In this document: one piece after another, positions 9,398 through 30,025 of the stretch
Position numbering within the stretch: position 1 is the stretch's first letter
How the letters are laid out: the number at the start of each line of letters is the position of its first letter
IMG/VR virus record: IMGVR_UViG_3300028837_000083
Coordinates: 1 to 33,836 of that record
Reading direction: 5' to 3' (one strand)
Source: a virus
Length of the DNA stretch: 33,836 bases
The notes under the pieces: model-generated
What the model saw: only the letters and a program-made list of their open reading frames with translations
The model's database searches: none
What the model was told of the DNA's origin: nothing
Program-made: the position numbers and the translations under genes

Positions 9398-9508
9398 CGG
9401 GCGTTTCCTGGGGGGGACGTATGGAAAGACCCTTTCGACTATTATGATCGTTCTAGGGGCGTCTAGGCGCCCTGGCGGGCTTATCTAGGGAAGGATCAGG
9501 GCGGGAAA
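9398..9508 (+). repeat. Intergenic with CTAG palindromic element, copy 1 (9449-9475)
   Basis: This 111-base gap holds 27 bases (9449-9475) identical to 19836-19862; the core is CTAGGGGCGTCTAG followed by GCGCCCTGG. AGGG(G)CG can pair with CGCCCT across TCTAGG. A partial sequence CCTTTCG just upstream is also shared with the second copy. No promoter hexamers are evident, so the element may be a transcript boundary or protein site. Confidence 0.7.
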
Positions 9509-12130
9509 ATGGGAAGAACGTATAAAATCACGAACGGGACGAAAGAAGTCGACCTTCTGGCGTCTGGATCTTCCGGGATCCGACCAGACGAAGGCGGTCT
9601 GGGTCCGTCCAGGATAGCGCCGGTCCATAATTTTACGGATCCGGGCGCGGTATCTGGCGGCGGCGTCGCGAATGTAAAGTTTCCCCTAGTTGTCGATACC
9701 TGGCGGCTTTATATCCGGGGGACTTCAGACGACGATATAGCGTCCCAGTTAAAGGATCTGATCGAACTTCTTCGCCAGGGCTGGCGATACCATATCGAAC
9801 CGCGACAGAACGTCCCGGTCTATATTGAAACCCAGACGACCGGCGAAACGAATATCCGTTACGCGCTGATTTACGGGGCGCCGGAAATGACGGCGCCGGA
9901 CTTCTTCGACGTCCCATTCGAATCCGCCGACCTGGTCGAACATATGAATATTCAGATCGTCCGGGAACCGTTCTGGCGATCGAACGCCCCAGGGACGCCG
10001 GGGACGGCTTTAACCCTGGCGCCCATGTGGAACGGGAAGGTTATCGTCGAAGCGGACTTCGACGCCGTAACGGAAAACGGATCTTCGACCCTGGTCGACG
10101 AATCCGGGGATCTGAAGTTTACGATCGACAGTTCCCAGAATACGGTTTTCGGTCAGATAACGACGTCCCTTCCCGACGACCAGGATCGGGTCGCGTTCCT
10201 TTTCCGATTAGATCCTAACACCCTGACAATGGCGACGAACGATCAATTAACGATTGCCCAGGGGATCGGCGCCAGTATCGGCGGGACGACGACGGACTGG
10301 ATCGTCGATCTTAAGAAGACGGCGACGGGTTATCAGATCGTTATTTCCATAGTCACCGACGCCGGGGCGACGACGGCGGGAACGGCGTTCGATATAAGCG
10401 ACGACGAAATGGACGTCCTGGTCGAATGGAATAATGCAACCGCGGTAGCGGCGGACGATGGCTATCTGAAAGTATGGGTTAATGGAATCCTGAAAGATTC
10501 AATAACGGGCGTCGATAACGATCAGCGACAGACGGATACGATTTATTTCGGCGCCGTTACCGGGATCGACGCGGGGACCGAAGGATCCTTTTATCTTTCC
10601 TCGATTTACTGGGCGGAAGAAAGGGACGGGGCGCCGACCAGGATCCACGTAGCGAACTTCCGGGACGACGTCGAAATAACCCATATTAAACAGGACGACG
10701 GCGCGGTCTTTACGGATCTAGATCTGGGCGACTCTCTTTTCCCGGCGGTCCCCGCGCAGAACGACGCGGCTTTATGGGGATCGACCGATCAGCCATTAAA
10801 GACGATCGTTATCCCGAAATTAAAAACGGCGGCGGTCATAACGACGACGACTCTAGTTCTGCAATATTCCCAGTCGGCGGCGTTCGCGGCTTTAACCCTG
10901 GGGGATGATTACACCGTTTATCCTGGTCCAGATCTGGAGTCTTCCCTGGAACAGAACGACGAAGACATAGTCCTTAATATAAAGATCCCGTCGGATCATG
11001 CGGCATATTCCCAGGACTCGGTTTCGGCGTTCTGGATCCGGCTTATCGAAACGAACGCGTCCCCATCCTGGGGGACGATCCCGGTCTTAAACGAAACGGA
11101 ATTCCCCTATCATCAGCGGGATCCGGTTATCGAAATTCCCCCAGGGATCATAGGCGGCGACGTCGAACCGAATTTATTAATGCGCGTTATGTCCCCCGCG
11201 GGCGGCGACACAGATCCGACCTTCGCGAATATTTCCCGGATCCTGGTCGGGGCGAAGTCCCGCGGTCTGGATTACTTCGTTTCCCATCTAAACGCGGGCG
11301 GCGACGATAACCCTTCCGAATGGGCGACGACACAGGTTACAGACGCGACCGCGACGGCGGATCCCCAGGGACCCGGCGGGAAACATTCGGCGGTCGACTT
11401 CGCAGGCAATTCGACGATGCAACCTAGAGTCCGATTTACCGGCGACGAAATCCTGGATTCCTGGGTCGGGGAATATCGGGCTTTTCTTCGGATGCAACAG
11501 ATCGGCGGCGCGGGCGGGGACTGTACCTTCCGACTTCTAACGTTTATCGCCGGATCCGGGGACGACGACCCCCATGTTTCTTCAGCGGACGTTGTCACCG
11601 AAACGAACGACGACGGTTTCGAAGTCCTGGATATGGGGATTATAAGGATCCCCTTCGCGCGTCCCAGGGCGGCGGACGTTCTGACGGGCGTCGACGTTAT
11701 CTTCGAAATACACGCGGAACGAACGACGGGGACTTCTACTTTAGTTATTTACGATCTGATCCTGATCCCGGTCGACGAATGGGTCGTCGGTCTGGACGAT
11801 CCCCTTTCGGACATTGAAACCGGATCGTCGGCGCTCAGGGGATCGACGGCGCTAGACGTCGACGGCGGCGTTATCGACTATCGGACCGCGAAGGTCCAGA
11901 AGATCGGCGGATCCTGGATCCTTTCGGAAAACTGGGCGCGAATGGGGAAGTCGCCGACCCTTCCCGACGTCGGGAAGAAATATCGACTCTATTTCCTAAT
12001 CCTGAATTATGAAGACGTCGGCGCGACCGGGGAATTCGGTCAAGCGCCGTTCTTCAGTTTCCCAGGCGCCCAGGTTTCGTTCGAAATGTTCGGTCATATG
12101 AACTATCTATTCTTAAGGGGATCTGATTAA
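9509..12130 (+). CDS. Distal tail-like protein with lectin-like domain
   Basis: 873 residues. The first 155 residues look like a distal tail (Dit) domain: a strand-rich start with KEVDLL and VANVKFPLVVDTWRLYIRG, then LKDLIELLRQGWRYH. Residues about 165-385 alternate short strands (LKFTIDSS, VAFLFRLDP, YLKVWVNGILKDS, IYFGAVTG), the habit of concanavalin/LamG sheets that bind sugar. The remaining 480 residues are beta-rich, with no recognised motif. Such long Dit proteins with inserted carbohydrate-binding domains adsorb to cell-wall sugars. It follows the tape measure gene and shares one base with the next start. Fold assignment is by pattern only. Confidence 0.75.
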   Translation: MGRTYKITNGTKEVDLLASGSSGIRPDEGGLGPSRIAPVHNFTDPGAVSGGGVANVKFPLVVDTWRLYIRGTSDDDIASQLKDLIELLRQGWRYHIEPRQNVPVYIETQTTGETNIRYALIYGAPEMTAPDFFDVPFESADLVEHMNIQIVREPFWRSNAPGTPGTALTLAPMWNGKVIVEADFDAVTENGSSTLVDESGDLKFTIDSSQNTVFGQITTSLPDDQDRVAFLFRLDPNTLTMATNDQLTIAQGIGASIGGTTTDWIVDLKKTATGYQIVISIVTDAGATTAGTAFDISDDEMDVLVEWNNATAVAADDGYLKVWVNGILKDSITGVDNDQRQTDTIYFGAVTGIDAGTEGSFYLSSIYWAEERDGAPTRIHVANFRDDVEITHIKQDDGAVFTDLDLGDSLFPAVPAQNDAALWGSTDQPLKTIVIPKLKTAAVITTTTLVLQYSQSAAFAALTLGDDYTVYPGPDLESSLEQNDEDIVLNIKIPSDHAAYSQDSVSAFWIRLIETNASPSWGTIPVLNETEFPYHQRDPVIEIPPGIIGGDVEPNLLMRVMSPAGGDTDPTFANISRILVGAKSRGLDYFVSHLNAGGDDNPSEWATTQVTDATATADPQGPGGKHSAVDFAGNSTMQPRVRFTGDEILDSWVGEYRAFLRMQQIGGAGGDCTFRLLTFIAGSGDDDPHVSSADVVTETNDDGFEVLDMGIIRIPFARPRAADVLTGVDVIFEIHAERTTGTSTLVIYDLILIPVDEWVVGLDDPLSDIETGSSALRGSTALDVDGGVIDYRTAKVQKIGGSWILSENWARMGKSPTLPDVGKKYRLYFLILNYEDVGATGEFGQAPFFSFPGAQVSFEMFGHMNYLFLRGSD

Positions 12131-12990
12131 TGTCCGTCGCGTCGATCGTAATAAAGCATAATCCCGTAACGTTATGGGAACGGTTTTCCCTGACCTTATC
12201 CCCAGAAAATGGGAAGTACGGGGATTATAAACAGGAAGACCGGGACGGCGGATTTTATAGGGCGTCGTTTAATGTTTATTTCGATCATGTGGCGGCGTCT
12301 GAATTCCTGGAAAGCGGTCTGGGGCGCCATATCGAAATATACGATCATCAGTCGATACTTCTTTTCGAAGGTTTCATTTTCGAAATGGTTCGCGACACTG
12401 GCGGAAGTCTTTCGGCGGTCAGTCTTCAGAATATGGTTAATCGGGTCTGGATGCGATCAGACCATGACGGCGACCAGATCGTCGAACGCGGAACGACCCT
12501 TAACGTTACCAAGTCCCAGGGGCGATACGGAATTAAAGAAGGTGTCCTTTCGGGGGGGGAACTAGAGGGCTTAACGGTCGCCGATCAGTCCGCGCAGGGA
12601 TACCTAAACCGGCGCGCTTATCCGATCCCAGAGTCTGACATAGGCGCCGGATCCGGGATCCCCCATTTACAGATTTACTGCAGGGGATACATTGAAACCC
12701 TATCCTGGCGGGTCTATAACCAGACGGTTTTAACGGGCGCCCAGGGCGCGAACGCGCAGATCGAAGACGTCCTGGACGCCGTCGGGGACTTCGTCGCCAG
12801 TTATAAGGTCGACCCGAATTCGACCCAGGTAACGAAGGAATACGACGCCGATCGGCGCGCCCTGGATATTATCTTAGGGGTTACAAGTCTAGGGGATTCG
12901 CACGATCGAAGGTGGATAGTTAAGATGGATGCCGGTCGCATTTTTCGTTATAAGCAAGGGAAACCTGCGATCCCGTTATCGCAGATATAA
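12130..12990 (+). CDS. Tail hub/minor tail protein, N-terminal portion (apparently split)
   Basis: 286 residues. An N-terminal strand-rich part contains YRASFNVYFDHVAASEFLESGLGRHIEIYD and ILLFEGFIFEMV, a hub-type pattern (in-plane ring, like Tal or gp27 domains). The end reads DAGRIFRYKQGKP, which in related proteins continues with the Y-x(n)-G-I-R-D-A-x-G segment now found at 13900-14190 in another gene. So the gene seems to have been interrupted. The start is shared with the preceding stop (TAATG). A GGAG site follows for the next gene. Confidence 0.65.
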   Translation: MSVASIVIKHNPVTLWERFSLTLSPENGKYGDYKQEDRDGGFYRASFNVYFDHVAASEFLESGLGRHIEIYDHQSILLFEGFIFEMVRDTGGSLSAVSLQNMVNRVWMRSDHDGDQIVERGTTLNVTKSQGRYGIKEGVLSGGELEGLTVADQSAQGYLNRRAYPIPESDIGAGSGIPHLQIYCRGYIETLSWRVYNQTVLTGAQGANAQIEDVLDAVGDFVASYKVDPNSTQVTKEYDADRRALDIILGVTSLGDSHDRRWIVKMDAGRIFRYKQGKPAIPLSQI

Positions 12991-12999
12991 GGAGTCGAA

Positions 13000-13275: not shown

Positions 13276-13278
13276 ATT

Positions 13279-15460: not shown

Positions 15461-15470
15461 GGGGTCTTAT

Positions 15471-15827: not shown

Positions 15828-15831
15828 TTCT

Positions 15832-16233: not shown

Positions 16234-16240
16234 CACGCGG

Positions 16241-16253
16241 GAGGGACGACCCC
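16241..16253 (+). promoter_or_regulatory. Recurrent mini-hairpin ribosome site GAGGGACGACCCC
   Basis: Third clear copy of the GAGGGACGAYCCC leader, abutting ATG 16254. GGG-ACGA-CCC can pair over the Shine-Dalgarno. Confidence 0.45.
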
Positions 16254-17330
16254 ATGAGTAAAAAAGGTCCTATCGCGCTGGTCGGTTTCGGCGATTCGCG
16301 TTCGGGCGTATTCGATCTGGATCCAGAAATTCCGATCTGGACAATGAATAATCCCGAACCTTACGGATTCCCGCGGATCGACCGGCTTTTCGATATTCAC
16401 CCGATCCGGGTCCTGGAATTCACCGGGCGAATGAGTCGTTATCGGAAAGGGACACCCTATCCGGTCTATCTGATCGACGTTCTTTCCGACGTCCCGCGGG
16501 GCGTCGCCTATCCCCTGGACCGGGTCCTGGACGAAGTCTTCGATCTGATCTATGTCGGCGACGACCAGGCGGAATATCTGACGTCGACGTTTCCTTATAT
16601 GGTCGCCCTGGCGGTCCTCGAGGGATACGGACCCATAAAGACCTTCGGTTTCGAATTCGGATCTGATACCGAATGGCGATACCAGAGGGAAGGCGCGGCG
16701 CTTTTAGTCGGATGGGCGGCGGGTCGGGGGATCAGGATCGAATTCCCGGAAGGGAATACTTTAATTCCCCGGACGCTGTACGGTTATACCGATTATCAGA
16801 TGATCCACGAAGAAGAACTGATAGCGATCCGGGAAGACCTGGTCCCGCGATACCATGAAGCGAACGCGCGGATCCCCAGGGAAAAGACACCGGACGACCA
16901 GGCGGAAGCGTTTAAAGAGAAATTAATGCTATCCGGCGGGATCCAGATCGTCGATACCATGATCGAAACGGTCGAAGACCTGGAAGCGATCAGTCGCCAG
17001 TCCCTGGAAGGAATGTTAAACGACCTGGTCCGTCAACATTCCGTTGAAATGTCCAGGACGTCGTCCGAACACAATATCGTTATCGCCCTGACGGAAGTCG
17101 TTCCGAAGATCTTCGCCGATAATGGCGATCTTCCCGAAGGGATCCAGGATCAGGTCGACGATCGGATCGTCCGGCGGGACGAAGCGTTTCGACAGTTATA
17201 CATAGCAGGCGGGGCGATCCAGGTCGTCCAGTATCTGATCGGATCCTGCGATCGAAAGGTTTCCGATCGGATCGAATTTAAGGATCTGAATTTCGTCGTC
17301 GAAGACGGGGAAGAACAGGTCGTCGAATAA
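16254..17330 (+). CDS. Rossmann-like phage protein of unknown function
   Basis: 358 residues. The N-terminus IALVGFGDSRS is a strand-glycine-loop of Rossmann type, then IWTMNNPEPYGFPRIDRLFDIHP and YPVYLIDVLSDVPRGVAYPLDRVL, FTYMVALAVLEGYGPIKTFGFEF and LYGYTDY. I have seen this set of motifs in many environmental phages and in proteins near sugar-transfer genes, where a glycosyltransferase or nucleotide-sugar role is suspected but unproven. Residues 190-350 are a helical appendage. No catalytic residue can be named. It stands in the fibre region with its own ribosome site. Confidence 0.55.
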   Translation: MSKKGPIALVGFGDSRSGVFDLDPEIPIWTMNNPEPYGFPRIDRLFDIHPIRVLEFTGRMSRYRKGTPYPVYLIDVLSDVPRGVAYPLDRVLDEVFDLIYVGDDQAEYLTSTFPYMVALAVLEGYGPIKTFGFEFGSDTEWRYQREGAALLVGWAAGRGIRIEFPEGNTLIPRTLYGYTDYQMIHEEELIAIREDLVPRYHEANARIPREKTPDDQAEAFKEKLMLSGGIQIVDTMIETVEDLEAISRQSLEGMLNDLVRQHSVEMSRTSSEHNIVIALTEVVPKIFADNGDLPEGIQDQVDDRIVRRDEAFRQLYIAGGAIQVVQYLIGSCDRKVSDRIEFKDLNFVVEDGEEQVVE

Positions 17331-17339
17331 GGCGGGAAA

Positions 17340-17603
17340 ATGCCGAAACCCTGTCATGGGAATTGTGCAGATCATTGTTGTTATTTCCGGGGCGTTATAT
17401 GTCCTTATGTCGAAGAAGACACCGTCCCCGGTCGGCGCTGGACCTGCGGCTTATTGCGGGAACTGGGAACCTGGGACGCGGTCCTGGAAGACGAACGATA
17501 TAGAACGATCGTCCAGGATCTTTATAATACGGTCCCCGAACTGGAAGGGACGAATTGCCGGGACTGGTACTGTAAGGATTTAATGAATGGCGACTCTGAC
17601 TGA
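17340..17603 (+). CDS. Cysteine-rich small protein (possible metal site)
   Basis: 87 residues with nine Cys, clustered as C5, C9, C13, C14, C21, C36 and C73, C78 near the end. The motif C-H-G-N-C-A-D-H-C-C and the later WTCGLLRELGTWD resemble a short family of phage and bacterial proteins thought to bind zinc or an iron-sulphur cluster. The overlap with the following adhesin start is 17 bases. It is unusual among structural genes. Metal binding is inference. Confidence 0.6.
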   Translation: MPKPCHGNCADHCCYFRGVICPYVEEDTVPGRRWTCGLLRELGTWDAVLEDERYRTIVQDLYNTVPELEGTNCRDWYCKDLMNGDSD

Positions 17604-19458
17604 ACTTCGCCCGAACGGGGATATATTAACGACAAGTATCCTTAAGGTCAATTCGGGAGGCGATACGCTCTGGTACCAGTGTATCGACGACGATCCCGAT
17701 AGTCCCGATTCGTCTGATTATATTTATAATTCCAACGACATCGACGCGACGTTAAAGGTCGACCTTACGGCGACGGATGCCGATTTAAGCAATATGGATA
17801 CGGCGACGGTCGCCGCCTATTTTTCGTCGAACGGAACGAGATCCGACGACTCGATCGTTATCTATATAAAGATAACGAACGCCGCCGAAACGACCGACTA
17901 TATCGTCGAAACGGAAATCGCCAGATGGGATAGCGGCGGCGCCCAGACGGGATTAAGAACTGCGGGATCTGTTACCGCGGCGGGGATAGCCGCGACGAAG
18001 GCGGACTGGGACGCGGCGCGACTTCATATTCGATACGATAATACGAAATCGAAGAACTGGGACGGGATAGATCTTCGGGTCGACGCTATCGAATTGCGGG
18101 GGACCTATTCGGCGGGCGGCGTCACCCATAATTCCGGGGCGAACCTGACCGGATCCGCGACCCTGGCGGCGGTCGCCGAAGTCGTCCATCAAGCGGCGGC
18201 GGATCTTTCGGGATCTGCGACAGTTGCCGCGATCGCCGAAGTTGTCCATCAAGCGACGGCGACCTTATCAGGATCCGGGACGGTTATCGCCGTCGGGGTC
18301 CTTCAGCACGAAGCGGAAGCGGCGTTATCAGGATCTGCGACGGTTGGCGCCCTGGCGGAAGTCGTCCATCAGGCGACTGCAGATCTAGCGGGATCCGCGA
18401 CTCTTACGGCGACCGCGGAAGTCGTCCATCAGGCGGAAGCGTCGTTATCTGGATCCGGGACAGTCGAAGCGGTCGGGACTATTTTAGGGACAGTCACCGG
18501 GACGGCGACTCTGGACGCGACGGCGACGGTCCAGGCGATCGCCGAAGTTATCCATCAAGCGACGGCGATCCTAGCGGGGTCCGCGACTATTACGGCGACG
18601 GCGACGAAAGAAGTCACCGGGACGGCGACCCTGGCGGGATCTGCGGCGCTTGCGGCGCTTGCGGAAGTCGTCCATCAGGCGATCGCGGATCTGACCGGAA
18701 CGGCGGATCTAGTCGCCCTGGCGGAAGTTATTCATCAGGCGATCGCGGATCTTTCGGGAACTGCGACCCTGGCGGCGGTCGGAACTGTCGACGTCGGCGC
18801 GGTAGTCACCGGCGCGGCGTCCCTTACTGCGACCGGATCCATGACGGCGGACGGATCCCAGATCCTGGTTTCCGCGTCGATCATATCCGGGACGGCGACT
18901 CTGGCGGCGGTTGGGACAGTCGAAGCGGCGGCGGCGGTCGAAGGCGCGGCGTCCCTTACTGCGACCGGATCCATGACGGCGGACGGATCCCAGGTCTTAG
19001 TTTCCGCGTCGATCATATCCGGGGCGGCGACCCTGACCGCGGATCCTGCGGCGGTCTTCGTTTCCGGGGCGTCCCTGGCGGGATCAGCGTCGATAGTAGC
19101 GACGGCGTTAGTCGGCGGGGAAGTTTCGGCGACGGCGACCCTGACCGCGACGGGATCCATAACGGCGGCGGGATCCATATTCAATGAAGCGACCGCGACT
19201 CTTACTGGGTCCGCGGTGTTAACGTCTAGTGGGGCGCTATTCCCCGGCGGGTTCGCGTCCCTGGCGGGAACTGCGACCCTGACGGGCGATATAGTCGGGA
19301 CGATCGTCGGCGATACGGAAATCGAAGCGGCGGTCCATGTAACGGGACGGGGCTTATTCGCCGATCAGGATCTACAACCCCTGGGCGTCTGGGGCGCCCG
19401 GATAGATAAGGATCTGTTAACACCGTTCGAATCCTTACGACGTAAACTTAGAAAATAA
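17587..19458 (+). CDS. Repeat-rich tail fibre/adhesin
   Basis: 623 residues. Residues 1-175 are a beta domain (ELRPNGDI, IYIKITNAAETTDYIVETEIARW, RLHIRYDN, AIELRGTY). Residues about 180-560 are low-complexity Ala/Thr/Ser/Gly repeats: first a 20-residue unit (EVVHQAxADLSGSATVAA), then two 44-residue units containing SLTATGSMTADGSQ. The last 35 residues (GRGLFADQDLQPLGVWGA, ending RRKLRK) differ and may attach to the tail. No Cys in the repeats. This looks like a long, flexible, self-repeating fibre, probably variable between related phages. Nothing identifies the receptor. Confidence 0.7.
   Translation: MATLTELRPNGDILTTSILKVNSGGDTLWYQCIDDDPDSPDSSDYIYNSNDIDATLKVDLTATDADLSNMDTATVAAYFSSNGTRSDDSIVIYIKITNAAETTDYIVETEIARWDSGGAQTGLRTAGSVTAAGIAATKADWDAARLHIRYDNTKSKNWDGIDLRVDAIELRGTYSAGGVTHNSGANLTGSATLAAVAEVVHQAAADLSGSATVAAIAEVVHQATATLSGSGTVIAVGVLQHEAEAALSGSATVGALAEVVHQATADLAGSATLTATAEVVHQAEASLSGSGTVEAVGTILGTVTGTATLDATATVQAIAEVIHQATAILAGSATITATATKEVTGTATLAGSAALAALAEVVHQAIADLTGTADLVALAEVIHQAIADLSGTATLAAVGTVDVGAVVTGAASLTATGSMTADGSQILVSASIISGTATLAAVGTVEAAAAVEGAASLTATGSMTADGSQVLVSASIISGAATLTADPAAVFVSGASLAGSASIVATALVGGEVSATATLTATGSITAAGSIFNEATATLTGSAVLTSSGALFPGGFASLAGTATLTGDIVGTIVGDTEIEAAVHVTGRGLFADQDLQPLGVWGARIDKDLLTPFESLRRKLRK
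18178..18790 (+). repeat. 60-base tandem repeats in fibre gene
   Basis: Units of exactly 60 bases (20 codons) beginning GAAGT(C/T)GTCCATCA start at 18178, 18238, about 18298, 18358 and 18418, with degenerate copies around 18538, 18664 and 18724. They encode the EVVHQA-LSGSAT units. Frequent GGATC sequences sit in each unit. Expansion or contraction by slippage is likely. Confidence 0.85.
18775..19038 (+). repeat. 132-base duplication in fibre gene
   Basis: Two adjacent copies, 18775-18906 and 18907-19038, share about 80-90 percent identity by eye, including a block with GCGTCCCTTACTGCGACCGG. Each encodes 44 residues. The period differs from the upstream 60-base units, so this is a later or separate duplication. 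Confidence 0.85.
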
Positions 19459-19764: not shown

Positions 19765-19798
19765 AACCCCCCAGACGACCCCAGAACGTCGCAAATAT

Positions 19799-19831
19799 AA
19801 AGGACGGATCTTTCTATCGGATCCGTCCTTT
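19799..19831. terminator. Bidirectional intrinsic terminator
   Basis: AAAGGACGGATC (19799-19810) and GATCCGTCCTTT (19820-19831) form a perfect 12-pair stem with a nine-base loop TTTCTATCG. A- and T-rich ends make it work in both directions. It lies between the convergent late operon (+) and leftward block (-), as expected. An outer eight-pair stem CCCCCCAG (19767-19774)/CTGGGGGG (19859-19866) encloses it. Confidence 0.9.
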
Positions 19832-19835
19832 CGTT

Positions 19836-19862
19836 CGTTCTAGGGGCGTCTAGGCGCCCTGG
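19836..19862 (+). repeat. CTAG palindromic element, copy 2
   Basis: Identical over 27 bases to 9449-9475, core CTAGGGGCGTCTAG then GCGCCCTGG. It adjoins the terminator at the convergent junction. Confidence 0.75.
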
Positions 19863-19871
19863 GGGGTCTGG

Positions 19872-20081
19872 TTATAGCGGATCCTGGGGCGAAACCAGGG
19901 AAACTTCGATAACGATCAGATGATCGGCGAGATCTTCGAAGTTCTTCGCGTCATTATGTGCTTGTTTAAGTCCCTTTTTCATAGCGTCTTCGATCGTTCC
20001 GGCGATAACGCGATATGCGAATTCGGACTGGGGACGGTTCCTTTTAATATCAGCGGTCCCGACTTCAATATTCCATAACAT
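19872..20081 (-). CDS. Small protein of leftward operon, unknown
   Basis: 69 residues, no recognised family. Starts with a strand (MLWNIEVGTADIK), then FAYRVIAGTIEDAMKKGLKQAHNDAKNFEDLADH and a hydrophobic strand IVIEVSLVS. Last gene of the leftward block; its ATG is one base after the upstream stop. Plausible alpha/beta fold, function unknown. Confidence 0.6.
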   Translation of the reverse strand: MLWNIEVGTADIKRNRPQSEFAYRVIAGTIEDAMKKGLKQAHNDAKNFEDLADHLIVIEVSLVSPQDPL

Positions 20082-22417: not shown

Positions 22418-22634
22418 CGGCGGACCCGTCCTTCCATAGTTTCCAGGTCGAAAACCTGGCGGGGACATATCGTCCCCCGCGGCGGTTCATGTAATACCAG
22501 AACGACCGGGAATAAACCTTATGTCCCTGGTCGACCCATTCCTGGGCGTCGGACGATCGGTCGGCGAACTGACTCAGAACGATTCCCCGTTCGTTCGGGA
22601 CCTTCGCCATATAAAGTATTATCCGGGATCCCAT
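22410..22634 (-). CDS. Small protein, unknown
   Basis: 74 residues, aromatic and basic (SRSFWYYMNRRGGRYVP), starts by overlapping the ERF stop by one base (TAATG). No recognised family. Probably co-translated with the annealing protein. Confidence 0.55.
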   Translation of the reverse strand: MGSRIILYMAKVPNERGIVLSQFADRSSDAQEWVDQGHKVYSRSFWYYMNRRGGRYVPARFSTWKLWKDGSADG

Positions 22635-23488
22635 TAGAAGGGAATGTCGTCTTCGGTTTCAGGGGATCCGTTCTTCTTCTTAAATAGATCTTCGTCGATC
22701 CACGCGGGGACCTGTTCGGCGGGGACGTTTTCCAGGACCCAGGCGATCAGACCCTTATTCGCATGGGCGACGGCGTCGTCGACCGTTCCGGACTTTTCCC
22801 CGTCTTTATAGCGCAACCATTTATATTCCTTCCCCCAGATCCCGAACCATTCGGGCGGGGCGTCTTTCGCCAGGATAACGTCGGGGCGATTAAGAAGGGT
22901 AGCGGCATGGGGCGGACTTCCGGCGGCGCCGGACTCCGCCAGGGCGCCGACCTGATCCGCGTCCCAGGAGATCCGGCGACTGTCGTCGGGGATCTTCCGG
23001 GTCTTCGGCGGTTTTACTTCCGCGGATCCCGACACCGTTCGACCTGCGGGCGGCGGTTGGTCCCCGTTGGGTTCGCCGGACTGAAGCATAAAGGTCTGAA
23101 GGACGAAGTTCTTTATTGCATATCCCAGGAACTGATTCGTCGCCTTATCGGAATAGTCGATCGCCATAGAAGGGATCGTAATATCAACCGATTCGCCGGT
23201 CGTAGTATGGACCAGGCGGAAGACGATCTTTCCGGTCGATCTGTACGCGTATTTTATTTCGCCCTGGCGGTTCGTCGTCTTAATCGTTTCGACCAGTTCG
23301 TCGACGTCGACGGGGAAGGCGATCAGTCCGGCGGCGATCATGGCGGGGCGAACGGCGCCGATCGCGGCGTCCTTCGTAATGAAGGAATAAGGAACCCCGG
23401 CGGAGTCCGACTTCGGGACACCGGCGACGGAGTCATAGACTTCTAGAATCGCCTTATACAATGGTGATAGATCTTTCGGGGTCGTCAT
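22634..23488 (-). CDS. ERF-family single-strand annealing protein
   Basis: 284 residues. Residues 1-140 are the ERF core: LYKAILEVYDSVAGV, YSFITKDAAIGAVRPAMIAAGL and the hallmark DYSDKATNQFLGYAIK (111-126), then LQTFMLQSGEP. ERF proteins anneal complementary single strands during phage recombination. The rest of the chain is a Pro/Lys-rich linker and a second domain containing PEWFGIWGKEYKWLRYKDGEKSG and ending DDIPF, an acidic-hydrophobic tip like those that bind single-strand-binding proteins. GGAAAAAAG precedes ATG 23488. Identity is firm on the core motif. Confidence 0.9.
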   Translation of the reverse strand: MTTPKDLSPLYKAILEVYDSVAGVPKSDSAGVPYSFITKDAAIGAVRPAMIAAGLIAFPVDVDELVETIKTTNRQGEIKYAYRSTGKIVFRLVHTTTGESVDITIPSMAIDYSDKATNQFLGYAIKNFVLQTFMLQSGEPNGDQPPPAGRTVSGSAEVKPPKTRKIPDDSRRISWDADQVGALAESGAAGSPPHAATLLNRPDVILAKDAPPEWFGIWGKEYKWLRYKDGEKSGTVDDAVAHANKGLIAWVLENVPAEQVPAWIDEDLFKKKNGSPETEDDIPF

Positions 23489-23602
23489 TTTCTTTTTTCC
23501 TTTCGTTCTACGGGGTCGGATAGTCGACCCAGGGATAGAATAGCATTAATCGGGGCGTCTAGTCAAGTCTAGGCGCCCCGATTTTCTGGACCCGACGTCG
23601 GG
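23489..23602 (-). promoter_or_regulatory. ERF gene upstream region with palindrome and promoter candidate
   Basis: AATCGGGGCGTCTAG (23548-23562) and CTAGGCGCCCCGATT (23569-23583) are a 15-base inverted repeat with one mismatch, related to the CTAG element elsewhere. On the minus strand TTGACT lies in its centre, and TGC-TATTCT (an extended -10) lies 18 bases downstream, toward the ERF gene. A repressor bound to the palindrome would cover the promoter. It could also act as a terminator hairpin. Confidence 0.55.
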
Positions 23603-25390
23603 TTAAAGATGGGCGAGGGACCAGGCGTCGCCGCAACGTTCCGAACAGAAGAAATCTTGTCCGTCGTTATAAAAGACCCCCGCGGATTCGCGGAAGATCC
23701 GTCCGCAATATTTACACGCGCGTTCTTCTTCCCCGGTTTTTTCCGGGACCAGTTTCGGTTGTTGGTCGCGATCCAGGACGAAGGTTTCGGTCGTTCCAGA
23801 TCCCAGAAGGACTTCGTCCGCGTCCAGGCGGAATTCGGTCAGAAGATCGTCGAAGTCTTTTTCCAGAAGACCGGCGACGAAATCGACGGCGCGTTCGCCG
23901 ACGATCTTCCAGTTATCGCGATCATGGCGAACGGACTTCAGTTCCCCGGCGAATTCGGCGGCGACTGATTGCCAGTTGATCGCGTCTTCTTCCCCAGGGA
24001 CGGATCCATAGGGCGCCGTTAGCAGATGGACCCTTAATTCCTGGCGGGCTTTTATTACTTCTTCGGATAACCAGGCGATAATTTTCTTATCGGATCCGAA
24101 GGGGTCGTAAAGTTCGCGTCCCTTCTTCAGATATTCGGCGCTGAATTCGTCGCGGACCTTCTGATCGGGGACCTGGGGATCGTCGATCGAAGTCGACGTC
24201 GATCCTGGGATCTGGGGATTATTCCCGGTCCCTTTACAGAACGGACACCGGGAAGACGCCGATCCTTCGTAGTGTTCGCCGTCTGGATCGCGCCCGGATC
24301 CCTGGCAGGCGGGACATTCGATCGTCGGAAGGTTTCCGTCTTCGTCGATCAGGACTTCGCCCAGGTCTTCGATCGGGGGAAGTCCGTCCTTCGCGCGGCT
24401 GGCGTTAACCAGTCGCGCGGAGTCTTCCAGTAGGGCGTCGGTCGGATTTTCTGGCGGGGGTCCGATCCAGTCGAAACCGGATAGAGTCTTCAGGCAGGAT
24501 TTACAATCGACGTCTTTCGGGATCGACAGACCGGAGTCGCCGTAATATTCCGAACTATCCCGTCCGCATAAGGTCGCGGGCGTGTTCCCTTCTTCGTCTT
24601 CGATGGCGATATGAGTCTTCGTCGTCCCGGCTTTTTTCTTCAGAAATCCGAAGACGACCCAGACCTTTACGGGGAAGGGATCAGCGGGTCCCCATCGTAC
24701 GCGATCGACGACCGGGATCTTTTCGGCTTTTTCTTCCCAGTATTCTTTATGATCCTTTCGTCCTAATTCCTTCTGAAGTTCTTCCATTTCCGGTTCGCAG
24801 TTCGGACAATACGCGGCGCCCGACGGCGTTTCTTTCATTTCCAGATTACAGTTTTCGCAGATATTCATTTCGTCTTTTCCTTCCTTTGGGGGGACTCCTG
24901 GTCGGTCTGATCGGTCCGAAATCTGGGTAGGAAATTTCGACTTCTGATCCCATTCGGGGGTCGATAGGACGTTCGTTATTTCCCAGGTCCCGATAGCGGA
25001 AATCGTCAATCCGTCCAGGTAGTAAACGATCCCCTTCTTCTTATAGAAGACTTCGATTTTATATCCGTCGACCTGGGCGGTTCCGATTATTCGTCCGTCT
25101 TCGCGGGTTTCCATATTTCGGATCGACCTTCGAGCTTCGCGCTGGATCCGGCGACTGGGCGCCAGATATGGGAAGATGGATTGGGTCGATCGGGGGATAA
25201 CGACGATCTGATCCTTCAGGATCTTTACGTCGTCGACCAGAAGTTCGAATTCCATATGCGGAAATCTTTTATTCAGATCTAGGACCTGGGCGTTCGCGTC
25301 GTTTTCGTCCAGATGGACTTCCCAGATTGATTCCTTATCGTGCGGGCGGTCATATTCTTTTCGTGTTTCGCTGATCGTGTAAGTTTTCAT
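23603..25390 (-). CDS. Large multi-zinc-ribbon protein, possible gene fusion
   Basis: 595 residues from ATG 25390 (GGAAAGG upstream; the longer frame to 25426 lacks one). It contains at least four Cys clusters: CENC...CPNC (178-198), C276...CKSC (276-299), CPACxGSG...CPFCKGTG (359-388, DnaJ-like zinc hairpin) and CKYCG...CSERC (559-586). Between them are unrelated segments such as THIAIEDEEGNTPATLCG, known as a stand-alone motif in phages. An internal ATG at 24868 carries its own strong AGGAAGGAAAA site. So this looks like several small genes joined by loss of stops, or a start inside the gene. First gene of the leftward block. Confidence 0.65.
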   Translation of the reverse strand: MKTYTISETRKEYDRPHDKESIWEVHLDENDANAQVLDLNKRFPHMEFELLVDDVKILKDQIVVIPRSTQSIFPYLAPSRRIQREARRSIRNMETREDGRIIGTAQVDGYKIEVFYKKKGIVYYLDGLTISAIGTWEITNVLSTPEWDQKSKFPTQISDRSDRPGVPPKEGKDEMNICENCNLEMKETPSGAAYCPNCEPEMEELQKELGRKDHKEYWEEKAEKIPVVDRVRWGPADPFPVKVWVVFGFLKKKAGTTKTHIAIEDEEGNTPATLCGRDSSEYYGDSGLSIPKDVDCKSCLKTLSGFDWIGPPPENPTDALLEDSARLVNASRAKDGLPPIEDLGEVLIDEDGNLPTIECPACQGSGRDPDGEHYEGSASSRCPFCKGTGNNPQIPGSTSTSIDDPQVPDQKVRDEFSAEYLKKGRELYDPFGSDKKIIAWLSEEVIKARQELRVHLLTAPYGSVPGEEDAINWQSVAAEFAGELKSVRHDRDNWKIVGERAVDFVAGLLEKDFDDLLTEFRLDADEVLLGSGTTETFVLDRDQQPKLVPEKTGEEERACKYCGRIFRESAGVFYNDGQDFFCSERCGDAWSLAHL

Positions 25391-25414
25391 TTTCCCTTTT
25401 TCCTTTCCGGGCGC

Positions 25415-25460
25415 CGTATCGCGCATATAAAGTATGTGGGAAGAAGGGTCGAAATAGTCT
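25415..25460 (-). promoter_or_regulatory. Leftward promoter candidate
   Basis: The minus strand has an AT-rich CATACTTTATATG that could serve as -10, with a weak TTCGAC about 16 bases upstream. The leftward block must start here, but the hexamers are poor. Confidence 0.3.
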
Positions 25461-25500
25461 GACGTTTACCTGACAGATTCGGGGGTCGTCTATTTGACAG
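25459..25500. repeat. Possible operator repeats TGAC(A)G
   Basis: CTGACG (25459), CTGACAG (25470) and TTGACAG (25494) share TGAC(A)G, with starts 11 and 24 bases apart, about one and just over two helical turns. They flank or overlap the rightward -35. They suit an XRE-type repressor from the adjacent gene. Confidence 0.4.
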
Positions 25501-25521
25501 GGGGAAGAAAATCGTTATACT
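25494..25521 (+). promoter_or_regulatory. Rightward early promoter (sigma70-type)
   Basis: TTGACA (25494-25499) and TATACT (25516-25521) with a 16-base spacer. Perfect -35 and five of six -10 matches, standing 31 bases before the XRE gene start. Best promoter seen in the window. Confidence 0.8.
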
Positions 25522-25552
25522 GGATCCGGGACGACCTGGAAGAAAGGTCGAA

Positions 25553-25762
25553 ATGAAGGAACCTATGATTCGAACGAACTTCGGCGCGGTAATGGAAGAA
25601 AAGGGAATTTCGATCGGGCGGCTGGAACGCGACGCCGGGATCTGTCGCAATACCGCGCGGGACTTCCGCCGGGATCGTCTTAAGCGGCTGGATCTGGGAA
25701 CGTTGGCGAAGGTCGTCCGGGTCCTGGACGTCCCGATCGACGAATTAATAATGCTATACTGA
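25553..25762 (+). CDS. XRE-family small repressor (Cro-like)
   Basis: 69 residues, all helix-turn-helix. FGAVMEEKGISIGRLERDAGICRNTARDF and LGTLAKVVRVLDVPIDELI follow the XRE pattern, with recognition helix around 25-37. Its size and place, directly after a strong promoter and before the initiator gene, match Cro-type regulators. A second ATG at 25565 is possible, but AGAAAGG before 25553 decides. No long CI-type partner exists in the window, so lysogeny control, if present, is incomplete. Confidence 0.8.
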   Translation: MKEPMIRTNFGAVMEEKGISIGRLERDAGICRNTARDFRRDRLKRLDLGTLAKVVRVLDVPIDELIMLY

Positions 25763-25884
25763 TTTACCGATCGACATTCGAAACGGGCGCCGGTCCGGGG
25801 TTAGACTCCCCGTCCTTTCGTCCGGTCTTCCGGTCTTAGATCGGCGTCCTTTTCGACGGTCGATTAACGAAAGGAAAAAAGTCT
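25763..25884 (+). promoter_or_regulatory. Gap with small hairpin and tandem TCCGGTCT
   Basis: CGGGG (25796-25800) pairs with CCCCG (25808-25812) over seven bases. Then TCCGGTCT occurs twice back to back (25821-25836), followed by TTTTCG. This could be an attenuator or a protein site between the repressor and initiator genes. GAAAGG precedes the next ATG. Confidence 0.35.
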
Positions 25885-26685
25885 ATGGCGATCGAAGTCA
25901 TAAATGCGGTCCTAGAATCGAAGGCGGAAAACCCTTCGAAGAAATGGGTCCTTCTGGGATTGGCGAATCATTCGGGACCTGACGGGCGGAACTGCTATCC
26001 GTCCGTTCGTCGTTTAATGGTCTATGGCGGTCTTTCAGAATCAACGGTCCGGGCGAAACTGGGGGAACTGCGCGACGATGGTCTGATCCGGGTCGTTCGC
26101 AAGGCGTCCAGGTATAGACCGACCGAATATATGATCGACGTCGATCGCCTGGTCGAAATGCGGGATCCTATCCTGGACGAACTTTCGGGGAAGACCCCCA
26201 AATCCGGGACAGAAAACGTTGAGCTGTCGAATGGGACCCCCATATCTGGGGGGTTAAAAGACAGGGGTCCAGGAAATGGAGGTCTGGACGACCAGGGGTC
26301 CATTTCCCGGATACCAGGGGTCCAGGAGCCGGAGTCCAGGGGTCCAGGAGATGGACCCGAACCGTCCTTTAACCTTTTAATTAAACCATCAGATTTAAAT
26401 ATTTCTTTCGATCAAAGCGGATTTATTCAGGCGAAGATCGGGATCCTGGGTCAAGTCACCGGCGGGAAACCCCATATCCTACCGCCGACCTGGGATCTGT
26501 ACGATCATACCTTCGCCGCGTCGGTCGAAGACGGGACCGGCGTCGTTATCTGCGTAGGCGAAGATCCCGATTATCAGAAATTATATCTTCGGGACCGGGC
26601 GACCCTTTTCAGGAATCATTGGTTCGGGGTCGACCTGGTCGAATTCATAACGGAGTCGGAATGGAAAAAAACGAAGACGGACTGA
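25885..26685 (+). CDS. O-like replication initiator with internal origin
   Basis: 266 residues. Residues 1-80 are a winged helix-turn-helix domain of phage replication proteins: KKWVLLGLANHSGPDGRNCYPSVRRLM then LSESTVRAKLGELRDDGLI (helix-turn-helix at about 38-75). Residues 105-165 are a Gly/Pro-rich linker whose DNA carries four direct repeats (126-154 in codons). The C-terminal 100 residues hold PPTWDLYDHTFAASVEDGTGVVICVG and a last helix, the part that would contact a helicase loader or helicase. Gene order, domain order and iterons inside the gene are as in lambda O. Helicase or loader genes were not recognised. Confidence 0.7.
   Translation: MAIEVINAVLESKAENPSKKWVLLGLANHSGPDGRNCYPSVRRLMVYGGLSESTVRAKLGELRDDGLIRVVRKASRYRPTEYMIDVDRLVEMRDPILDELSGKTPKSGTENVELSNGTPISGGLKDRGPGNGGLDDQGSISRIPGVQEPESRGPGDGPEPSFNLLIKPSDLNISFDQSGFIQAKIGILGQVTGGKPHILPPTWDLYDHTFAASVEDGTGVVICVGEDPDYQKLYLRDRATLFRNHWFGVDLVEFITESEWKKTKTD
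26262..26346 (+). repeat. Iterons: four direct repeats CAGGGGTCCA
   Basis: CAGGGGTCCA at 26262-26271, 26293-26302, 26315-26324 and 26337-26346. Starts are 31, 22 and 22 bases apart, near three, two and two helical turns. Three of the copies extend to CAGGGGTCCAGGA. All lie within the initiator gene's linker, and the amino acid pattern is not repetitive enough to require them. Confidence 0.85.
26367..26435 (+). other. AT-rich unwinding region candidate (origin)
   Basis: This stretch, just 20 bases after the last iteron, includes TTTAACCTTTTAATTAAA, ATTTAAATATTTC and ATCAAAGC. It is far more AT-rich than its surroundings. Iterons followed by AT-rich DNA inside the initiator gene is the architecture of lambda ori. 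Confidence 0.7.
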
Positions 26686-27515
26686 CTCAGGAAATGCGGG
26701 ACGATATAGTCGTCGACGTCGACCTGGTCGAACTTCTGAATTCGGGATCGACGGAAGTATCCAAGCATTACGGATACGAACCGGACGGCGGTCGCGGGAT
26801 AGAAAAGATCCAGGAAATCGAACGGGCGCTGGAAGACGGCGATATTCGGTTTATAAAAGACGTCACGCCGCGACCCTGGAATGACCGGGTCGACTTCGAA
26901 ACCTGGGGACTGGTTATCCCCGAAGATTTATCCCGCGAAGATCATAGATCCGTCGGTCTATCCCTGGCGGCTATGAAAAAGGCGGTCCATTACTGGGTCG
27001 GCGACTGGATCCGTTTCGGGGTCTGGAAATGGGGCGACGAATTCTTTCAGGAAATCGACGCGGAAGACTGGGCGGACGGTTTTATTTCCCAGGAATTCGG
27101 CTTTACGTTTAAGACAGTCCAGAACGACTTATGGGTCTGCGAACGGGTCGATCCTGACGTCCGTAAACTGGCGCCCGCGTTCGGCTATTCCGACGCCGTC
27201 GCGGTCCTTCCCAGGGACGACCAGGTCCGGGTCCTGAAACAAGCGCGGCGCCTGGGCTGGAAGATCCAGAAGGTCCGCGACGTGAAAAGGCGGATCCGCC
27301 AGGTCCGGGGGGAAATCCCATATCGAAAAGAAAATATAAAAGTTTCCAGTCCAGATCCCGATCGACAATTCCGGCGCCTGGTCGGACTCTATCTAGCGAT
27401 CGAAGACTGGATCCGGGCTTATCAGTATTACGGCGGCGGGCGGCTGGCGCATAGGACAATTCAGAAGAAGCGGATCCGGGCGAAGATTATCAGGGAACTG
27501 CAGGAGTCGAAATGA
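26661..27515 (+). CDS. Phage/plasmid-type protein of unknown role (WxGDWxxxG family)
   Basis: 284 residues from ATG 26661, chosen for GGAGTCGGA upstream; it overlaps the initiator gene by 25 bases. Residues about 95-200 show LSLAAMKKAVHYWVGDWIRFG, EEFFQ-like GDEFFQEI, then TFKTVQNDLWVCERV and VLPRDDQVRVLKQARRLGWKIQKVRDVKRRI. This set resembles a family widely found in phages and plasmids with a W-x-GDW-x2-G core followed by helices for DNA binding. The exact function in replication or transcription is unknown. The C-terminal 70 residues are basic. Confidence 0.55.
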   Translation: MEKNEDGLTQEMRDDIVVDVDLVELLNSGSTEVSKHYGYEPDGGRGIEKIQEIERALEDGDIRFIKDVTPRPWNDRVDFETWGLVIPEDLSREDHRSVGLSLAAMKKAVHYWVGDWIRFGVWKWGDEFFQEIDAEDWADGFISQEFGFTFKTVQNDLWVCERVDPDVRKLAPAFGYSDAVAVLPRDDQVRVLKQARRLGWKIQKVRDVKRRIRQVRGEIPYRKENIKVSSPDPDRQFRRLVGLYLAIEDWIRAYQYYGGGRLAHRTIQKKRIRAKIIRELQESK

Positions 27516-27736: not shown

Positions 27737-27749
27737 AGGGAAGGAAATA

Positions 27750-27956
27750 ATGGACGTCGTTATTTACACGAAAACCGGGGTCGGAAATATCCTTTCGGAA
27801 GAAATAAAAGATATTAAGCATATCGAAATAACGGTCGATAATTCCATGTTTCGAATCGATCCCCTGGACGAAGGAATAACGATCTGCGAATTCGGATCCC
27901 GGCGTCTGATCCTGGTCCCGGATTCGGAAGAAGCGATCGGGATTATTACGAACTGA
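27750..27956 (+). CDS. Small beta-rich protein, unknown
   Basis: 68 residues from ATG 27750 (GGAAGGAAATA upstream). Strands VVIYTKTG, IEITVDNSMFRIDPL, ITICEFGSRRLILVP. No family recognised. Confidence 0.6.
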   Translation: MDVVIYTKTGVGNILSEEIKDIKHIEITVDNSMFRIDPLDEGITICEFGSRRLILVPDSEEAIGIITN

Positions 27957-27969
27957 AAGGAATAAAGAA

Positions 27970-28182: not shown

Positions 28183-28283
28183 AACCAGGCGAAGTGGTAC
28201 TTCTGATAATGCTTATACTGGGGATCTTCGGTTCGGGATTCGCTGGCGGATATTTCTTATCGCAATATAGAAAGGGGGAATAA
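28179..28283 (+). CDS. 34-residue membrane peptide
   Basis: Short gene of 35 codons starting at 28179 in the upstream stop (ATGA) and ending by sharing TAATG with the next. It has one membrane span (VVLLIMLILGIFGSGFAGG) and a charged YRKGE tail. The packing with both neighbours supports expression. Possibly a lysis or exclusion peptide; unproven. Confidence 0.65.
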   Translation: MKPGEVVLLIMLILGIFGSGFAGGYFLSQYRKGE

Positions 28284-28477
28284 TGGCAGTAACGACGGGG
28301 AAAAATTGTTACTGCCATACGTGCGAAAAACCCTTCCATTATTTAGGGATCACCCGTCACAGGGCAATGCACAAGGACCGGCGGGAAGATTGCAAGATAA
28401 CGTATACAGACGGGGACACTTATTTACATAGATTTTCGCAAAGCGAAAGGGTAAAAAATGGCGGCGCCCATAAATAA
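28283..28477 (+). CDS. Small C2H2-type zinc finger protein
   Basis: 64 residues. CHTCEKPF then H22 region GITRHRAMH gives Cys-x2-Cys and His-x3-His spaced like a C2H2 finger, with an extra Cys nearby. The C-terminus is charged (FSQSERVKNGG). Such fingers occur in phage early genes, for DNA or protein contacts. Confidence 0.65.
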   Translation: MAVTTGKNCYCHTCEKPFHYLGITRHRAMHKDRREDCKITYTDGDTYLHRFSQSERVKNGGAHK

Positions 28478-28796
28478 CAAGTCGTCCTTAAGGTGCGAAG
28501 CGGTTTCGGATCCCGTATTTAAATATTACAGACGCGGGATCTGGATCTATTTCGGGGAATTCCGGGACTCTTTACGGGACGGGATCCTTCCCCCTGGGTC
28601 GATATGGAAGATTGGGGCGCCCTGGATCGAAGGCGCCGTCGATACGATCGTCCAGGTCGTCCCCCATCCAGACGTAACGGGTCGCGAATGGGACCTGGGC
28701 GAATGGGATTCCCCGGCGCCCCAGACCCTGGTCGACGTTACGACCGGCTTTTCTGTCGATCTTCCGTCCCTTTCCAGGGTCGGCGGGGGAATCTGA
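28458..28796 (+). CDS. Small protein, unknown
   Basis: 112 residues; ATG 28458 overlaps the preceding gene by 20 bases and has AAAGGGTAAAA upstream. The sequence contains GIWIYFGEFRDSLRDGILPPGSIWKIGAPWIEGAVDTIVQVVPHP and strand-rich SPAPQTLVDVTTGFSVDL. No recognised family. An overlap this long with a 64-residue gene is unusual but the coding signal is good. Confidence 0.55.
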   Translation: MAAPINNKSSLRCEAVSDPVFKYYRRGIWIYFGEFRDSLRDGILPPGSIWKIGAPWIEGAVDTIVQVVPHPDVTGREWDLGEWDSPAPQTLVDVTTGFSVDLPSLSRVGGGI

Positions 28797-28798
28797 AT

Positions 28799-29026
28799 AT
28801 GGCATATATAACGACCTATATCTGTAAGACCTGCGACGGGGATCCCGAATTCGAAGGGATCCGGGAAATAGAAAAGCATATGAAGGAAATTCACCCGGAC
28901 GAAGGAATGATCGGATCCCGAAAAGGGATCGAATTTCTGGACGGCGCTAAGGGATGGTTTCGGAATACCTTCGAAGTAAAGATCGGGGACGTCGATCTGA
29001 TCCAGGTCGACGTAGCGGTCGAATGA
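28799..29026 (+). CDS. Small C2H2-like zinc protein
   Basis: 75 residues from ATG 28799. C9-x2-C12 in YICKTC and H-x4-H in HMKEIH form a C2H2-like set in the first 35 residues; the remainder has strands ending DLIQVDVAVE. The stop shares bases with the next start (ATGA). Confidence 0.6.
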   Translation: MAYITTYICKTCDGDPEFEGIREIEKHMKEIHPDEGMIGSRKGIEFLDGAKGWFRNTFEVKIGDVDLIQVDVAVE

Positions 29027-29349
29027 CCAGGCGCCGACGGGCGGGTCCCAGATTCACGAAGAAGGACGCGACCCAGGACTGGTTCGTCCAGGAAATAAGG
29101 AAATATCCGGGCGTTTCCGTCTTCGAAACGAACGACGTCGGCGGCGGATTCGGGGACGTCGTCGTCGGTTTCCGGGGTCAGACGATGATCGTCGAAATAA
29201 AGGTCCCAGGGAAACGCGACGACCTGACAGAAAACGAAAAGAAATTCCGGGATACCTGGACCGGCGCTTATATGGTCGCGTGTATCCCGGACGAAGTCCT
29301 GGACGCTATGGGATTCTTCGATGGGATCCCGAAAGGAGTCGAGAAATGA
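29023..29349 (+). CDS. VRR-NUC/Holliday-junction-like nuclease
   Basis: 108 residues from ATG 29023. Residues 35-60 contain FETNDVGGGFGDVVVGF and MIVEIK, a D45...E58-x-K60 core as in VRR-NUC and archaeal-resolvase-like enzymes. LTENEKKFRDTWTGAYMV after it resembles the motif following that core in small phage nucleases. The metal residues are visible, activity is inferred. Basic N-terminus (TRRRRAGPR). Its role could be branched DNA cleavage in recombination or packaging. Confidence 0.75.
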   Translation: MTRRRRAGPRFTKKDATQDWFVQEIRKYPGVSVFETNDVGGGFGDVVVGFRGQTMIVEIKVPGKRDDLTENEKKFRDTWTGAYMVACIPDEVLDAMGFFDGIPKGVEK

Positions 29350-29555
29350 TTAAGACATATAAGTCCGAAAAGGCTATGGAACGGGGAATTAAGAAGCTGG
29401 AAAAAAAAGGCTGGATCGTTCGATCGGTCGATACTGTCGATCCCGGCTATGGATGTTTAAAGACCGGATGCCTGGGGGTCCTTTTTCTTCCCCTGGCACT
29501 ATTAGGAAAAAAACCGAAATACTTCCGGGTCGTCTTTCAGAAGGCGGGGAAATGA
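29346..29555 (+). CDS. Small protein with hydrophobic stretch
   Basis: 69 residues from ATG 29346, overlapping the nuclease stop by four bases. YKSEKAMERGIKKLEKKGWIVRSVDT is a charged helix-strand start; GCLGVLFLPLALLG near 45-58 is hydrophobic, possibly a membrane patch; end VVFQKAGK. GGAGTCGAGAA precedes it. Unknown function. Confidence 0.6.
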   Translation: MIKTYKSEKAMERGIKKLEKKGWIVRSVDTVDPGYGCLKTGCLGVLFLPLALLGKKPKYFRVVFQKAGK

Positions 29556-29761
29556 AAACGTTCGAAGTTTACCTGGAAAAATACCACGAAGCGTTGGTCG
29601 GCGGATATACAGAAGGTCGACATTTTTATATTGAAGCGAAAGACGCGCGGGAAGCGTTTAAACTTGTCGACGAATACACCGGAACGAATCCTATAATGTT
29701 AATTAGGGTCGAAGAAGTCGCAGGGCGGATTTATCCGAAGAAGAAAGGACGGACCCCATGA
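29552..29761 (+). CDS. Small protein, unknown
   Basis: 69 residues from ATG 29552, coupled by ATGA overlap. KTFEVYLEKYHEALVGGYTEGRHFYIEAKDAREAFKLVDEYTG looks like a ferredoxin-type alpha/beta mini-domain seen in small phage proteins. No catalytic motif. Confidence 0.6.
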   Translation: MKTFEVYLEKYHEALVGGYTEGRHFYIEAKDAREAFKLVDEYTGTNPIMLIRVEEVAGRIYPKKKGRTP

Positions 29762-30015
29762 ATCACGCGGTGGAAATCCAGATCGAAGCGGGGAAGGCTT
29801 GTTATAAATGCGGACATACGCCGGGAGTCGTTCCGTTGGGGACTCATTATATCGAATACGTTCCAGGACGTCCCCCCGATAGTTCTTTTCGCGGAGGGCG
29901 GGACGATTGTTTAAAAATAACCTGTTCACAATGCGGTTATTCCTGGCGGGTCGAAACCCTGGATCAGCGGAAGAAGAAGGCGAAGGAAGAAAAGGACTTC
30001 GCCCAGGGCGGCTAG
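29758..30015 (+). CDS. Zinc-ribbon small protein
   Basis: 85 residues. CYKCG (15-19) and C-x2-CGY (about 56-60) form a zinc ribbon with a third Cys nearby (DDCLKITC). Basic Lys/Arg tail. The ribosome site AAAGGACGGACCCC resembles the recurrent leader. Its stop TAG 30013-30015 lies inside the CTAG element. Confidence 0.65.
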   Translation: MNHAVEIQIEAGKACYKCGHTPGVVPLGTHYIEYVPGRPPDSSFRGGRDDCLKITCSQCGYSWRVETLDQRKKKAKEEKDFAQGG

Positions 30016-30025
30016 ACGCCCCTAG
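30003..30025 (-). repeat. CTAG palindromic element, copy 4 (reverse orientation)
   Basis: CTAGACGCCCCTAG (30012-30025) is the reverse complement of the CTAGGGGCGTCTAG core, and with CCAGGGCGG before it matches the copy at 9449 at 22 of 23 positions. It precedes the methyltransferase gene and includes the stop codon of the zinc-ribbon gene. Confidence 0.7.

Follow-up and report, generated by a model that had tools for sequence, protein, structure and literature searches.

The window analysed here is the whole 33,836-base stretch of virus record IMGVR_UViG_3300028837_000083, a tailed-phage record whose ends fall inside the portal and large terminase genes. Its short gaps hold a palindromic element built around CTAG, present as three close copies (A, B and C) and one wider form (D) (Table 1). 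Genes were taken from a table of 54 entries, hand-picked from the list of open reading frames (ORFs), which leaves about 5% of the window outside genes; the coordinates of entries 27741-27956 and 31908-32200 are approximate only. All 54 entries were compared with the PHROG families, and many of them are without any match.

Copy A is 55 nt downstream of the tape-measure gene and 33 nt upstream of the next gene (9509-12130). The original prediction labelled that gene distal tail, a name for which no PHROG or Pfam match was found. Copy B stands just beyond a separate terminator hairpin and precedes no gene start. Copy C is 33 nt upstream of the methyltransferase start and contains the TAG stop of the preceding ORF. 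Element D follows the leftward gene 23603-25426 at a distance of 19 nt and precedes the ERF gene by 59 nt.

Table 1. Elements, promoter and genes discussed in the text, with positions in the window
Feature	Position	Strand	Remarks
Copy A	9453..9475	+	between tape-measure gene (stop ends 9397) and gene at 9509
Copy B	19840..19862	+	convergent junction, 9 nt past end of leftward gene 19872-20081
Copy C	30003..30025	-	1 mismatch; shares 13 nt with the end of ORF 29758-30015, including its stop
Element D	23548..23583		36-nt inverted repeat with 10-bp arms, a 16-nt spacer and two exact half-sites
Degenerate inverted partial copy of B	19765..19788	-	pairs with B in predicted fold
Terminator hairpin	19799..19831		inside the junction's long inverted repeat; listed for + strand; on minus strand TATATTTG after last T-run
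Probable ERF promoter	23537..23566	-	TTGACT-18-TATTCT, TG before -10, rank 2 by own scoring
ERF-like single-strand annealing protein gene	22634..23488	-	phrog_155, E 2.4e-10; Pfam ERF below cut-off; downstream of D
9/11 half-site	25483..25493	+	adjoins -35 box of XRE promoter (25494-25521); chance possible
XRE protein, Cro/C1-type regulator	25553..25762	+	HTH_26, E 1.3e-10; candidate binder, not favoured
LmbU-family regulator	26619..27515	+	54 bits, below family cut-off 125; candidate binder
N6/N4 DNA methyltransferase	30059..31114	+	weak helix-turn-helix match inside; candidate binder

A non-random set of intergenic dyads

Copies A to C share a 23-bp near-palindrome, CTAGGGGCGTCTAG(G/C)CGCCCTGG. 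Its full form, CTAGGGGCGTCTAGGCGCCCTGG, is exact in A and B, and its first part, CTAGGGGCGTCTAG, recurs without mismatch at 9453 (+), 19840 (+) and 30012 (-). The identity of A and B, first put at 27 bases, measures 28 nt (9448-9475 = 19835-19862) and includes a non-symmetrical flank. Copy C, on the opposite strand, matches at 22 of 23 positions, as had been claimed for a reversed copy at this place. The core GGGCG-TCTAGG-CGCCC is palindromic at 14 of its 16 positions. A, B and C keep 22-23 of the 23 positions while the flanking DNA diverges. Within this identity, one position departs from the dyad symmetry (T facing G or C), and structure alone would not conserve it.

Element D, described earlier as a symmetrical form of the same motif, is indeed an inverted repeat. 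It spans 36 nt, with perfect 10-bp arms (AATCGGGGCG and CGCCCCGATT) around a spacer that begins with TCTAG and ends with CTAGG. The arms are thus 16 nt apart in D versus 6 nt in A to C, a difference of ten. Five exact matches to the half-site GGGGCGYCTAG are found in the window, one each in A, B and C and two in D.

Chance does not produce such counts. Among 200 dinucleotide shuffles, 194 had no exact half-site and six had one. A 14-mer found three times in the window was absent from all 200 shuffles. CTAG-N6-CTAG, present four times, was absent from 186 of 200 shuffles and occurred once in the other 14. Allowing up to three mismatches, CTAGGGGCGTCTAG is found at seven places versus 1.9 expected, a count not attained in any of 100 shuffles. 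A shuffle test of the longest repeat was set aside, as the observed 51 nt stems from outside this element and overlapping palindromes were counted.

Exact half-sites in A, B and D are wholly intergenic, and 4 nt of the one in C fall within a gene end. At up to two mismatches, 39 places match the half-site. Three of them differ from it by one mismatch: the remaining arms of A and B and a site at 8648 inside a gene. Another 31, including the remaining arm of C, have two mismatches; four of these 31 count as intergenic, versus about 1.5 expected from the 5% share of the bases. By these counts, exact half-sites lie in gaps or at a gene's very end and near-misses are mostly intragenic. The original prediction would have fallen had copies been scattered inside genes as often as between them, a pattern that the exact half-sites do not show. 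Its statement that all four elements lie between genes holds for A, B and D; C overlaps its gene by the 13 nt given in Table 1. We conclude that the dyad set is real, non-random and intergenic.

Predicted promoters and candidate regulators

Promoters were ranked with our own sigma-70 weight table, in which TG scores extra, over gaps extended by 40 nt. At D, where a promoter had been proposed within the element, the consensus scan bore this out: on the minus strand (23566-23537), the -35 box of the predicted ERF promoter sits at the dyad centre of D. By our own scoring, this promoter ranks second among all positions on both strands. The top rank goes to TTGACA-16-TATACT at 25494, ahead of the XRE gene. 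The replication and ERF genes also have a common leader, AACGAAAGGAAAAAAG, before their starts (25866-25884 and 23489-23507).

On sequence grounds, our tentative reading is that the four elements may be DNA sites for a single sequence-specific regulator that binds as a dimer and is most likely encoded by the phage, and would form a small dispersed operator set. An operator was one of three roles suggested at the outset and is the best supported of them: the copies share sequence and dyad symmetry, lie between genes and, in D, centre on the -35 box of a high-ranking promoter. A dimer would contact the two GGGCG arms. The ten extra base pairs between the arms of D amount to about one helical turn, so the same face of the DNA could still be read. 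At D, the regulator would block the ERF promoter, that is, initiation. No high-ranking promoter lies at A, B or C. There the regulator would act on passing RNA polymerase at unit ends; alternatively, it would act on promoters that are invisible to a sigma-70 scan. Because the set is small, with one copy on a high-ranking promoter and the others off, a comparison of D with A could tell whether the elements affect initiation, elongation or neither.

Which protein would bind is a separate question. The XRE protein, named as a possible binder by the original prediction, is not favoured because its own promoter carries only a 9/11 half-site. The second protein named there, the methyltransferase, is a possible binder: copy C precedes its start and a weak helix-turn-helix (HTH) match lies inside it. 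This stretch (residues 149-230) matches phrog_3 at E 0.0019 (E 0.0006 for the piece alone) and HTH_31 at E 0.024, and presumably occupies the place of the target-recognition domain, as judged by eye from the motifs of such enzymes. One could imagine that the methyltransferase modifies phage DNA and, through the dyads, also acts as repressor of its own gene and sets the timing of the ERF recombination operon, with the one-turn difference in arm spacing allowing two modes. We regard this as a very long shot. The replication initiator (phrog_1032, E 8.2e-17) is a further candidate. So is the LmbU-like protein, a phage-coded and below-cut-off member of a family described from actinomycetes. The LmbU target reported for Streptomyces, CGCCGGCG (PMC6510168), is absent from the window, so the motif lends no support to this protein as the binder.

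Several observations weigh against a single operator set. The spacer differs between D and the other copies, which is unusual for one dimer, and four copies are few. Only one of the four is on a high-ranking promoter; in the gaps of the other three, the best promoter scores rank 142 (A), 373 (B) and 124 (C). The region of the top-ranked promoter (25427-25552) is without a full copy and has only the 9/11 half-site. All the binders named above are candidates, and AlphaFold2 run on the single methyltransferase sequence gave no usable model (predicted local distance difference test score 36). Finally, four motif patterns are absent from all 38 viral loci with related capsid genes (L004-L041), of which L004 stops short of the sites and the rest are distant.

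RNA hairpins, mobile palindromes and other DNA sites

The copies could instead act as RNA hairpins at transcript ends, as weak terminators, processing sites or 3'-end stabilisers. Their positions fit such a role. For B, C and D, the stop codon of the gene upstream is at most about 20 nt away, and these three share one polarity relative to transcription; the polarity of A is opposite. To judge folding, each gap was scored as a z value against dinucleotide shuffles, with 60 coding windows as the reference (mean -0.53, s.d. 1.17, lowest -2.66). The gap with D (z -5.1 and -4.5 on the two strands) and that with B (-6.4 and -5.8) fold very stably. The gaps with A (-0.2 plus, -1.6 minus) and C (-0.3 plus, -1.5 minus) fold no better than shuffles, which speaks for sequence and not RNA structure. 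Strong folding is not general to the intergenic DNA: nine of 12 gaps are within the coding-window range (z not below -2.66). Those beyond it are the gaps of B, D and 25763-25884. The last of these, which separates the XRE gene from the replication gene, likewise forms a long nested inverted repeat (z -3.1 plus, -1.0 minus).

The fold at B is not that of the element itself. The convergent junction (19765-19871) is a single long imperfect inverted repeat of about -56.7 kcal/mol on either strand, with the separate terminator hairpin at its tip. In this predicted fold, B pairs with its degenerate partial copy and not with itself.

The details of pairing also favour sequence. None of the four copies has after it the sense-strand U-tract of an intrinsic terminator. 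On the opposite strand, there is a short T run after D, and the terminator scan lists a site at 30018-30000 that overlaps C, antisense to the genes there. In B, C and D, the sense strand has a mismatch where the arm and the central CTAG would be joined by a base pair, and the single change in C does not restore pairing. The pairing pattern of the copies fits kept sequence better than a kept hairpin.

Two further results favour structure. The window has 18 perfect inverted repeats with arms of at least 8 bp, and four of the 18, D included, are in the roughly 5% of intergenic DNA. The sequence GGGCGNCTAGNCGCCC forms hairpins flanked by terminator-like A and T runs in some unrelated viral loci (for example L050, L054, L057 and L060). 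Rfam gave no match at gathering scores. The transcript-boundary element suggested originally agrees with the positions of the copies, but not with the folding of the gaps with A and C or with the missing U-tracts. Overall, we consider an RNA role for the copies somewhat unlikely.

A second alternative is a dispersed short palindrome, like a repetitive extragenic palindrome (REP) or host-derived, that was copied into the gaps by itself or by other means and has no regulatory role for the phage. It would account for the inclusion of a non-symmetrical flank in the identity of A and B. Contigs L005, L034 and L038, whose capsid genes are related, have many dispersed repeats of their own, some palindromic and some in mechanically called ORFs, of a kind known from Chloroflexota genomes. 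The exact half-sites here avoid genes. No transposase was matched among the 54 entries compared with PHROG, many of them matchless and the record cut at both ends. A 20-mer of the element, at up to one mismatch, is absent from 396 Actinomycetota genomes, which may not include the host, and blastn found nothing for A among phage and plasmid records or for D among phage records. We hold this origin to be unlikely.

Least of all do we expect some other kind of DNA site, whether for recombination or inversion, for replication or partition, or as a methylation-sensitive switch of the phage methyltransferase. Short inverted arms around a 6-nt spacer resemble recombinase core sites, A, B and C occur as direct and inverted copies about 10.4 kb (A-B) and 10.2 kb (B-C) apart, and C is close ahead of the methyltransferase gene; yet integrase, invertase and partition families are likewise missing from the PHROG matches of the 54 entries (many of which have none), four scattered single sites are unlike an origin or a centromere, and nothing was found for the partition or replication site first suggested, which makes this quite improbable.

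Relatives and comparable phage repeats

The relatives compared were the 38 viral loci mentioned above, two genome loci and one tail-gene relative. L004 is 100% identical to the window over 794-6164, a segment that reaches none of A to D. The other capsid-gene relatives are 29-67% alike in the best protein segment. Related actinobacterial genome loci belong to Prauserella and Longimycelium. In locus L087, three motif patterns are absent and one half-pattern matches once, alone.

An exact 17-mer scan of viral contigs had no matches, and neither had nine viral records at up to two mismatches. At the same tolerance, two actinobacterial genomes gave six matches versus 20 for the reversed control pattern. 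CTAGGGGCGTCTAG was found in 16 stretches elsewhere, in a single copy each. GGGCGNCTAGNCGCCC turned up once in each of 43 stretches, a pair of which come from the same contig, with no sign of kinship seen. Searches for the proteins returned no viral relative of the methyltransferase, ERF or LmbU-like proteins and no relative of the methyltransferase among phages or plasmids. Among phage records, the first 25 kb and the protein at 16254 had no near match and the capsid protein one weak match (23% identical).

The repressor sites of phiC31 are conserved inverted repeats. In phiC31 and L5, 18-30 repressor sites are reported to be dispersed over the genome (PMC4557955). The elements described here resemble both in that one regulator's sites would be spread genome-wide; in L5, some are described at promoters and some in short gaps (PMC9283540, PMC4557955). 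L5 stoperators are described as asymmetric and oriented with transcription (PMC9283540), whereas the four sites here, versus 18-30, are near-palindromic. A and C are oppositely oriented although both are in rightward units, unlike stoperators.

By symmetry, Clusters O and EG come closest. In Cluster O mycobacteriophages, a 17-bp dyad is reported in more than 30 copies, and its symmetry suggested dimeric regulators to the authors (PMC4351075). As here, invariant short inverted arms surround a spacer, many copies are intergenic and there is no clear orientation to transcription; the available text assigns no binder and describes several predicted DNA-binding proteins in the genome (PMC4351075). 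The Cluster O repeats differ in sequence, in their number, in being about one-third intragenic and in occurring in five phages (PMC4351075); here there are four copies, one of them on a predicted promoter, and no close relative covering the sites was found.

Among Microbacterium phages, an 18-bp inverted repeat is described in 8-10 copies for Cluster EG, and a 30-bp repeat in five copies for Cluster EI (PMC7302621). These too are few and in short intergenic regions, and the source, as far as available, gives the repressor or integrase of those clusters as unidentified (PMC7302621). EG sites are typically 14-22 bp before start codons (PMC7302621), in contrast to 33 nt for A and C, 59 nt for D and no start for B.

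Extended start-associated sequences (ESAS) of Cluster K mycobacteriophages are likewise imperfect inverted repeats with a variable spacer (PMC3203893). They are described as tied to a 13-bp start-associated sequence before the start codon (PMC3203893), a tie that is not seen here. The window does have a start-associated motif of its own, AGGGACGAYCC, directly before the start codons of three genes (3638-3648, 7173-7183 and 16242-16252), with a weaker variant at 29746-29757 before a fourth. It is not found before 9509, 30059 or 23488. The shorter GGGACGAYCC occurs seven times in the window, three times at gene starts and four times inside genes. The motif resembles the start-associated sequences described for Cluster K (PMC3203893) and Cluster EF (PMC7302621) phages.

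By analogy, the set would work most like these phage repeats. Sites of such a general type have been described before in other phages, and the present set is a further example and not a new phenomenon. A literature search with narrow phrases found no other comparable case. Such intergenic repeats recur in unrelated phages, and the accounts of Clusters O and EI, as far as available, give their function as not known (PMC4351075, PMC7302621).

Several likely restriction sites are strongly avoided in the window. GGCC is wholly absent (0 versus about 121 expected), as are CCCGGG, GCCGGC, ACCGGT and CCATGG, and TCCGGA (1 versus 25 expected) and ATCGAT (3 versus 27) are almost absent. L004 is also without GGCC. 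Finally, the gene at 17587-19458 contains many repeats over 18091-19114, mostly 60 bases apart, or about 20 residues each.

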